Part shown: piece after piece, positions 55,107 to 56,945 of the stretch
Layout: each line of letters opens with the position of its first letter
How positions within the stretch are numbered: position 1 is the first letter of the stretch
From: Geobacteraceae bacterium
Lineage (GTDB): Bacteria; Desulfobacterota; Desulfuromonadia; Geobacterales; Pseudopelobacteraceae
Reading direction: 5' to 3'
Assembly: GCA_013336525.1 (NCBI GenBank)
Contig: JAAXTM010000005.1
Location: forward strand, 1 to 64,000
Length of the DNA stretch: 64,000 nucleotides
Notes under the pieces: generated by a model
What the model was told of the DNA's origin: nothing
The model's database searches: none
Seen by the model: only the letters and a program-made list of their open reading frames with translations
Position numbers and translations under genes: made by a program

Positions 55107-55295
55107 ATGTTTGGTTTTGGCATGCCGGAATTGATAGTTATAATGGTCATCGTTCTGGTCGTTTTTGGGGCGGGAAAACTTCCGGAAATCGGTGGGGCTC
55201 TTGGCAAAAGTATCCGGAACTTCAAAAAGGCATCTGATGGAAAGGACGAAATTGAAATCAAGCCCAAGAGTGAGGATAGTGACAAGAAAGCCTGA
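55107..55295 (+). CDS. tatA: Sec-independent protein translocase TatA/TatE
   Basis: A 62-residue protein with one short membrane helix (about 6-22), the [23 protein letters not shown] amphipathic region and a charged tail. It forms the pore of the twin-arginine system for folded proteins. GAGGAGG lies before the ATG. tatB and tatC are not adjacent. A strong terminator follows at once, so it is a single-gene unit. Confidence 0.93.
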
Positions 55296-55314: not shown

Positions 55315-55363
55315 ATACAAAAAAGGGGAGAGAGGCGCTATGCCTCACTCCCCTTTTTTGTAT
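55315..55363. terminator. bidirectional terminator after tatA
   Basis: A 22-bp stem (55315-55336 with 55342-55363, one A-A mismatch) with A6 and T6 flanks lies between the convergent tatA and aminotransferase genes. Confidence 0.87.
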
Positions 55364-55377
55364 CATGACCACGAGTA

Positions 55378-56682
55378 TCAGGATTTAAGATACTCCCCGA
55401 TTTTCTCCGCCAAGGTGCTGTAAATCCGGCGGCACTCGTTTTCATCCTTCTCCAGCAGCGTCACACGGAAACCCTGCAGAGGCGTAGAGAATGAAGAAAG
55501 TGGCACAGTGCAGATGCCGGTTGTTGCCAGTATCTGATAAACGAAGCGTTTATCGGGTGAGACTCCCGGCTGGTTGATCAATCCCTCAACGAGCCCCTTG
55601 ACCTCAGAGTTGGCAATTGGAATAGACTGGCGGTTGTTCAGCAAACCATCCTTGAACGCCACTGCCATATAAAAAGCACCATTGGTACGATTCACCTGTA
55701 GCTCAGGCACCTGACTGAGACAGTCAAAAGTTATATTGCTCATCCGCTCGTAGCTGGCGATGCGCTGCGCCAGGTAGGCTGAATATTCTGGATGACGGAC
55801 GATTTCAGGGATAACCATCTGCGGCAACGTTGTGGAACAAACCTCATTCATCTTGCCGGTAAGGATCAGGTTGATATATTTTTGAAAGCGTGCGTCTTTA
55901 TGGCCATTATACACTTCAATCCAGCCGCAGCGTGATCCCGGCCAAGGGAATTCTTTGGAAATACCTTTCAATGAGATGGCGGGAACATCTCCGATCACAT
56001 CACTGATCGGCACAGTAGTCTCGCCGTTATAGACAATATTGATGTAAACCTCATCGGCGATGATAAACAGATCGTACTCACGGGCTACGGCAACAATCTC
56101 CTGCAGCAGCTCCCGGGTGTAGACCATGCCGGTCGGGTTATCAGGATTGATCAGCATGATTGCACAGATATTCGGATTGTAGCGGACATGGTTGCGCAGA
56201 TCTTCCATATCCGGGTACCAGTTATTTTCAGGCTTCAGACAATATAGCGAGGGAGCCGAGTGAGCGTGCCCGATCTCGCCCAAGGTATGGGTGGTGTAGG
56301 ATGGCGAAGGCATAAGAACCCGCGCTTCAGGACGCAAGCAGCCGTAAATCTTGGCAATAGCGTCTCCAAGCCCATTAAAGAAAATGATGTCATCAGGTGT
56401 GATCTGGGCACCACCACGGCTGTTGGTAGTTTCACAGATAAATTCACGGGTTTCAAGCACACCTCGGGTATGGCAATATCCCCAGGTACGATTATCCATT
56501 GCGGCCCTGGCAACAATTTCCTTCATCCACTCCGGAATGTTCTCACCCTTGACAATCGGATCGCCAATATTTTCCCAGTTAATCTTGACACCATGCTTCT
56601 GGAGTTTCTCTGCCACATTGACGATATTTCTGATTTCATACGTCAACTCGCCAGTTCCTGGCGGCACCAGTTCGATTCTCAT
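55378..56682 (-). CDS. AlaA-like class I aminotransferase (probably alanine-pyruvate/glutamate)
   Basis: A 434-residue PLP enzyme. TWGYCHTRGVLETREFI, INPDNPTGMVYTRELLQEIV and IIADEVY match the class I fold, and the PLP lysine lies in KGISKEFPWPGSRCGW. Its segments align by eye with E. coli AlaA (YD-I-R near the start, GYC, NPDNPTG), so alanine synthesis from pyruvate with glutamate is likely, though tyrosine or aspartate aminotransferase activity cannot be ruled out. Upstream lie a terminator and an Ala-rich leader ORF, suggesting regulation by alanine supply. Confidence 0.85.
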   Translation of the reverse strand: MRIELVPPGTGELTYEIRNIVNVAEKLQKHGVKINWENIGDPIVKGENIPEWMKEIVARAAMDNRTWGYCHTRGVLETREFICETTNSRGGAQITPDDIIFFNGLGDAIAKIYGCLRPEARVLMPSPSYTTHTLGEIGHAHSAPSLYCLKPENNWYPDMEDLRNHVRYNPNICAIMLINPDNPTGMVYTRELLQEIVAVAREYDLFIIADEVYINIVYNGETTVPISDVIGDVPAISLKGISKEFPWPGSRCGWIEVYNGHKDARFQKYINLILTGKMNEVCSTTLPQMVIPEIVRHPEYSAYLAQRIASYERMSNITFDCLSQVPELQVNRTNGAFYMAVAFKDGLLNNRQSIPIANSEVKGLVEGLINQPGVSPDKRFVYQILATTGICTVPLSSFSTPLQGFRVTLLEKDENECRRIYSTLAEKIGEYLKS

Positions 56683-56737
56683 TAGCGTTCCCTCTCTTTA
56701 CAGGTTTATATGTATCTGTTCTCTGCCACAATTGAAT

Positions 56738-56769
56738 AAAAAAAAGCCGTGGACTCCTGCCCACGGCTT
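56738..56769 (-). terminator. intrinsic terminator upstream of the aminotransferase gene
   Basis: On the minus strand a 9-bp stem (AAGCCGTGG, 56769-56761, with CCACGGCTT, 56752-56744), an 8-base loop and a run of eight T form a strong terminator, 56 bases before the aminotransferase ATG. Part of its 5' arm and loop (56764-56758) can pair instead with TGCCCAC at 56807-56801. Confidence 0.88.
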
Positions 56770-56797
56770 GCGATTATCTTTAAAAGCGGAACGACAA

Positions 56798-56881
56798 TCA
56801 GTGGGCAACAGGCAAAAGTGCGGCATCACGCGCCGCGGCGATAATAGCTCGTTCTGATTTTGCTGTAATCATGATTATCAT
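56798..56881 (-). CDS. candidate Ala-rich leader peptide
   Basis: A 27-residue frame starts at ATG 56881, with an in-frame ATG nine bases later and another 18 bases upstream. Eight of its codons are alanine, most of them in AIIAAARDAA, and it ends PVAH just before the antiterminator segment. No Shine-Dalgarno sequence is visible before any of these ATGs, a real weakness, although a TATGAT at 56900-56895 could start a nearly leaderless transcript. It resembles no known protein. Confidence 0.4.
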   Translation of the reverse strand: MIIMITAKSERAIIAAARDAALLPVAH

Positions 56882-56945
56882 AAGGGGTGTCAATATCATA
56901 CCGGATCAGTGACGTCAATGGTTTTTAAAACATCACAAAAGCATG

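Follow-up and report, generated by a model that had tools for sequence, protein, structure and literature searches.

Positions 56738–56918 on the reverse strand of the window, the 64,000-nucleotide stretch of Geobacteraceae DNA analysed here, very probably act as a ribosome-mediated transcription attenuator, sensing charged tRNA-Ala to control the gene for a PRK06855 aminotransferase. Comparison of sequences across relatives reveals a leader open reading frame (ORF), its alanine codons, a terminator, a covarying pairing between two segments termed 2 and 3, and a link of all of these to the aminotransferase gene. The features concerned, all on the reverse strand, are the following.

55378–56682, reverse strand: PLP aminotransferase of NCBIfam NF005334 (PRK06855), assigned by profile score; the presumed regulated gene, with its ATG at 56682.
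56738–56769, reverse strand: intrinsic terminator AAGCCGTGGGC-AGGA-GTCCACGGCTT followed by a T run, stem 56769–56744 (fold and stem covariation).
56758–56764, reverse strand: segment 3, GTGGGCA, in the 5′ arm and loop of the terminator, partner of segment 2 (pairing and covariation).
56801–56807, reverse strand: segment 2, TGCCCAC, the 5′ strand of the antiterminator, in the last codons of the leader ORF (pairing and swap tests).
56820–56836, reverse strand: hairpin GCGGCG-CGTGA-TGCCGC within the ORF, similar to a 1:2 hairpin and a possible pause hairpin (fold).
56831–56839, reverse strand: presumed control codons GCC GCG GCG, Ala15–17 (alanine conservation in group-A leaders).
56846–56851, reverse strand: invariant CGA GCT, Arg11-Ala12 (codon counts in group-A leaders).
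56881–56798, reverse strand: leader ORF, MIIMITAKSERAIIAAARDAALLPVAH and a stop codon, probably leaderless (frame and alanine codons conserved).
56890–56918, reverse strand: predicted promoter of sigma-70 type for the leader, with TTGACG at 56918–56913, a 17 nt spacer and TATTGA at 56895–56890 (recognized from its sequence, with a putative function).

The original prediction had described a leader of 27 codons, 8 of them for alanine, and reading the window sequence directly confirms this ORF and its position at every point. On its own the window sequence is a modest, suggestive signal: the probability of at least 8 alanines among 27 codons is 4e-4 at the local alanine frequency of 0.070, calculated for the window leader alone. 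Comparison with relatives takes this sequence signal far past chance. From 58 related genomes and 80 named contigs, among them those of Oryzomonas, Geotalea, Geomonas, Citrifermentans and Geomobilimonas, the sequences preceding the orthologous genes were collected; they yielded 49 distinct complete Geobacterales leaders with an alanine-rich ORF and a terminator. Alignment of these regions, which had been proposed as the check, finds the ORF, alanine codons, antiterminator pairing and terminator conserved together.

Across 85 leaders, alanine accounts for a mean of 33% of codons in the ORF frame versus about 5% in the two alternative frames, the longest alanine run is at least three in 81, and the next commonest amino acid, arginine, reaches 9%. 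The other frames contain stops in 71/85 and 41/85 leaders; the ORF frame is free of them by construction. In Geobacterales leaders the distance from the ATG to the conserved core is 30, 33, 36, 39 or 42 nt, only ever a multiple of three, and insertions and deletions between the two are of whole codons only. The core itself, approximately AARA(I/T)xAAAxxAAxLPAA, is present in 40 of the 49 complete Geobacterales leaders. At positions 15 to 17 alanine is encoded in all 40 group-A Geobacterales leaders, with synonymous variation (GCC, GCA, GCG or GCT) at the first control codon of the group. Geomonas and Citrifermentans carry a divergent form, for example MYTNSVTSRGSVHEAAAARPF and stop, that is largely different in sequence and has a run of four to five alanines. 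Within this form (L099, L100, L103–L109) the N-terminus MYTNSVTSRG..VH is conserved along with the run of four to five alanines, and a hairpin, GGCAGCAGCGGC/GCCGCCACTGCTG, surrounds the leader stop codon. The whole-codon indels and the frame-specific alanine content, together with promoter-to-ATG spacing or Shine-Dalgarno-like motifs, lead us to infer that the leader ORF is translated.

That spacing also bears on how translation might begin. The leader ATG of the window begins 8 nt after the −10 hexamer, and all 49 complete Geobacterales leaders scored have TTGAC, 16–19 nt (mostly 17) to a −10 element and an ATG 6–10 nt downstream, a count that is not unbiased, as the promoter search helped to recognize the leaders. 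Among leaders whose upstream sequence is complete, no exception to the pattern was seen. As the normal transcription start point would fall on or beside the ATG in Geobacterales, the window ORF is probably leaderless, with a conserved predicted promoter ahead of it. It had been noted, correctly, that no Shine-Dalgarno sequence precedes the leader ATG. The observation stands, while its use as an argument against the ORF does not, because a predicted start at or beside the ATG would explain the absence, and about half of the sampled sister-family leaders have a Shine-Dalgarno-like motif. In those families the ATG is farther downstream, and such a motif is found in 18 of the 36 leaders sampled, for example aggaggagttcATG in L193.

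One feature of the ORF is accounted for neither by alanine sensing nor by either RNA pairing. In group A the pair CGA-GCT is nearly invariant (CGA in 40/40, GCT in 38/40), and CGA is rare, comprising 4 of the 126 arginine codons in the window genes counted. The nearly invariant CGA followed by GCT or GCG could mark a site of ribosome or polymerase pacing. We tentatively entertain, as a doubtful reading, that this pair, three to four codons before the alanine run, is a programmed pacing signal that slows the ribosome or marks a polymerase pause, by which leaderless ribosomes and RNA polymerase would be brought into step ahead of the attenuation decision. An invariance of CGAGCT at the nucleotide level that exceeds the needs of the code might instead belong to a riboswitch, or to a leader RNA bound by a protein, in which the conserved nucleotides only happen to read as alanine codons. 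This is extremely unlikely, since indels are of whole codons, stop codons are kept beside segment 2, and alanine runs are retained in the Geomonas form, the sequence of which is without CGAGCT; nor did a T-box or any other Rfam leader family give a covariance-model match to the leader, in the window or at 10 leader loci.

The attenuator reading also calls for an intrinsic terminator between leader ORF and gene. The predicted strong terminator (56769–56738) and the seven-base complementarity between TGCCCAC (56807–56801) and GTGGGCA (56764–56758) are both present. The terminator hairpin has 11 GC-rich base pairs followed by a T run, and its stem covaries between A-U and G-C at alignment columns 129/154 and others. 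In the window and most Geobacterales an SH3 gene ends 32–64 nt upstream on the same strand, and the hairpin had been suspected of simply ending a hemE-VOC-SH3 transcript, with the small ORF an accident. This is almost certainly not the case. The leader is kept with other neighbours, as in L069, where a glycosyltransferase-like gene lies upstream, and in L145, which has a divergent lipoprotein-like gene, and because the unit stays with the aminotransferase when its neighbour changes, the terminator is not merely the end of the upstream unit. Many close relatives are without both leader and terminator, their aminotransferase mostly directly behind SH3. Codon phase, frame-specific alanine content and covariation also stand against a chance ORF in front of an operon terminator, a candidate that was rejected. 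In L032, L033, L041, L043, L046, L048, L049 and others that have lost leader and terminator, the aminotransferase behind the SH3-domain gene is presumably under upstream control.

Evidence for an antiterminator is strongest between families. Within the window leader a complement of at least seven bases is not exceptional, occurring in 269 of 5000 shuffled leaders (about 5%), and the terminator appears in the minimum free energy fold of the full leader, with z = −1.9. Segments 2 and 3 read TGCCC/GGGCA in most cases and TGTCCAT/ATGGACA in family f5, with further solutions in L182, L190, L193 and L167, and wherever the terminator differs segment 2 changes along with it. Terminator-loop positions that are dispensable for the terminator carry A-U, U-A, C-G and G-C pairs with segment 2 across families; these pairs were chosen by best fit, and the swap test is the unbiased one. 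For 36 leaders outside the order, segments 2 and 3 from the same leader pair better than swapped ones, and 0 of 5000 permutations reach the value for the true pairs. With one leader per family, over 19 families, the median permutation p is 0.002 and the largest 0.026. Inside Geobacterales alone the test is weaker (53/5000), and fixed-register 2:3 covariation within the order was not above column shuffles. There segment 2 has two registers in tandem, which in the window read TGCCTGT and TGCCCAC; this makes fixed-register counts uninformative and is the reason that a register-free swap test was used. In Geobacterales, 84–87% of cells pair, compared with 29–58% in slid controls.

The effect of a ribosome was modelled by folding with the 5′ part masked, an equilibrium treatment in which the RNA stops at the terminator loop and kinetics lie outside the model. 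In this model the probability of the 2:3 pairing in the window leader is 1.00 with a ribosome at any alanine codon as far as codon 21 and falls to 0.04 with one at the stop codon, while the mean over leaders rises from 0.25–0.35 at the stop to 0.84–0.92 at the longest alanine run. By pairing and model, the antiterminator is mutually exclusive with the terminator, free when ribosomes occupy the control codons and masked when they reach the stop, although the case is weak inside Geobacterales alone. The hairpin within the ORF has six pairs, most of them unchanged or almost unchanged in 34 leaders, and the 1:2 hairpin of the window leaves segment 2 unsequestered. In the model, window RNA free of ribosomes likewise forms 2:3, so termination would need either a ribosome at the stop codon or a greater stability of the 3:4 pairing. 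At 56683–56800 (reverse strand), the minimum free energy fold pairs the Shine-Dalgarno region of the aminotransferase, GAGAGGGAAC, with GTTCCGCTTT directly after the leader stop, possibly an extra layer of translational control.

The same model predicts that a ribosome stalling anywhere ahead of the final few codons would free segment 2, as expected of a general ribosome-stalling sensor that is not specific for alanine. The whiB7 upstream ORF is a precedent for such a sensor, its attenuation being linked with alanine starvation (PMC10727445, PMC13370626). We consider it very unlikely that the present leader works in this way, as about a third of its codons specify alanine against only 9% for the next amino acid, arginine, and the gene behind it is no stress regulator but an aminotransferase closest to alanine aminotransferases.

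That enzyme scores 743.8 bits against NF005334, for which the curated cut-off is 443. The nearest solved structures are 1xi9, a putative transaminase of Pyrococcus furiosus, and 4cvq, the glutamate-pyruvate aminotransferase AlaA of E. coli; both are nonetheless distant relatives (E about 1e-40). PRK06855 is a separate NCBIfam equivalog with no named substrate in that library, and sequence places the protein near AlaA and the alanine aminotransferases. The aminotransferase is found in 57 of 58 relatives and alanine dehydrogenase, above its cut-off, in only 16 of 58, a distribution that favours the attenuator reading; it counts against this reading that the genome of the window also has an alanine dehydrogenase. 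By its sequence relationships, the PRK06855 aminotransferase probably makes alanine from pyruvate. A TatA/E-like gene (55107–55295, forward strand) is convergent with it, and a palindrome near 55320–55365 (CAAAAAAGGGGAG..CTCCCCTTTTTTG) resembles a bidirectional terminator shared by the two genes.

Relatives with the terminator but no ORF would have spoken against the original prediction; no such case emerged, the relatives having either the whole unit or none of it. Of the 141 genomes in the order, 117 are matched at E ≤ 0.01 by R1, a covariance model built from 34 leaders, weak chance matches included; strong matches (above 60 bits) number about one per genome, and each one fetched stands before the aminotransferase. 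Among the weak extra matches inspected as possible second sites within genomes, those in G025, G104 and G043 (contig C38) were rejected as false positives, being terminators at the 3′ ends of alanine- and lysine-rich coding sequences. The site on contig C101 of G043 is a genuine leader, separated from the aminotransferase by an inserted gene. This inserted gene (L173, about 330–1280 after reverse complementation) has some 320 codons and is possibly a methyltransferase. A search of the class found the leader in at least 16 families beyond Geobacterales, before aminotransferases of 54–65% identity. Beyond the class, a looser rule finds a similar arrangement of alanine-rich ORF, terminator and a more distant homologue at five loci (L223, L230, L235, L237, L239) from four families in the phylum. 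The unit is absent from 31 of 89 scored rows, a count that wrongly includes L077, which has the leader; these losses among close relatives weigh against the attenuator reading. With L077 scored as lacking, the enzyme tree requires 14 changes of the unit at the fewest, at least 6 of them forced by well-supported branches. From this tree the unit looks ancestral in the class and repeatedly lost, and since it would have been lost several times, it would represent an optional layer of control rather than an essential one. Taken with the covariation of the pairing between families, the conservation of the whole unit before the aminotransferase supports the attenuation originally proposed.

The mechanism would bring together several predicted activities, namely promoter function, leader translation, stalling, a response to alanine and the reaction of the enzyme. 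The transcript would begin at, or adjacent to, the leader ATG, with a ribosome trailing RNA polymerase through the alanine-rich ORF. When alanine is sufficient the ribosome would reach the stop codon and cover segment 2 (TGCCCAC), leaving segment 3 to pair with segment 4 and transcription to terminate. When Ala-tRNA is short it would stall at the alanine codons and leave segment 2 free to pair with segment 3 once this has been made; the terminator would then be unable to form, and the aminotransferase gene would be transcribed.

Classical attenuators, described for trp, his, leu, ilv, thr and phe in E. coli and other bacteria, have a leader ORF rich in codons for one amino acid. The present unit shares that ORF, the mutually exclusive antiterminator and terminator and a probably biosynthetic gene behind them; it differs in using alanine and in having the 1:2 hairpin of the window beside segment 2 rather than over it. 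No alanine leader-peptide attenuator for an aminotransferase was found in searches of the open-licence PMC literature. Our best reading is that the mechanism itself is classical attenuation and that alanine as the sensed amino acid is new as far as that literature shows. If this is correct, alanine joins the amino acids to which ribosome-mediated attenuation responds, through one unit that extends throughout a bacterial class and in similar form to some families elsewhere in the phylum. It would also provide regulatory evidence for a function, alanine synthesis, of a widespread aminotransferase without a named substrate. The natural series from Shine-Dalgarno-led to leaderless leader ORFs would offer a means of studying the coupling of leaderless translation to transcription in Geobacter.

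Two further known systems are close. The leader RNA of Sinorhizobium meliloti trpL starts at the ATG of a leaderless leader ORF, and both the peptide peTrpL and the RNA rnTrpL act in trans (PMC7298713). The start at the ATG is shared, by prediction, with the present leader, whereas trpL has tryptophan codons and precedes trpE(G), and here the ORF would be leaderless in Geobacterales only, with about half of the sampled sister-family leaders having a Shine-Dalgarno-like motif. With that precedent, a small leaderless mRNA and a conserved peptide core, AARA(I/T)xAAA, could suggest that the peptide or the terminated RNA also acts in trans here. This is very unlikely, since the two ends of the peptide are free to vary, as they would be in a leader acting in cis, and the unit is often lost. 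For alanine, the nearest precedent is the upstream ORF of actinobacterial whiB7/wblC, where ribosome stalling forms an antiterminator (PMC10727445, PMC13393426) and the regulator is required under alanine starvation (PMC10727445, PMC13370626). Both systems would couple stalling in an upstream ORF to antitermination, and both are connected with alanine starvation; the actinobacterial one controls a transcription factor in response to many ribosome stresses, while the unit described here would control a single metabolic gene through alanine-specific codons.
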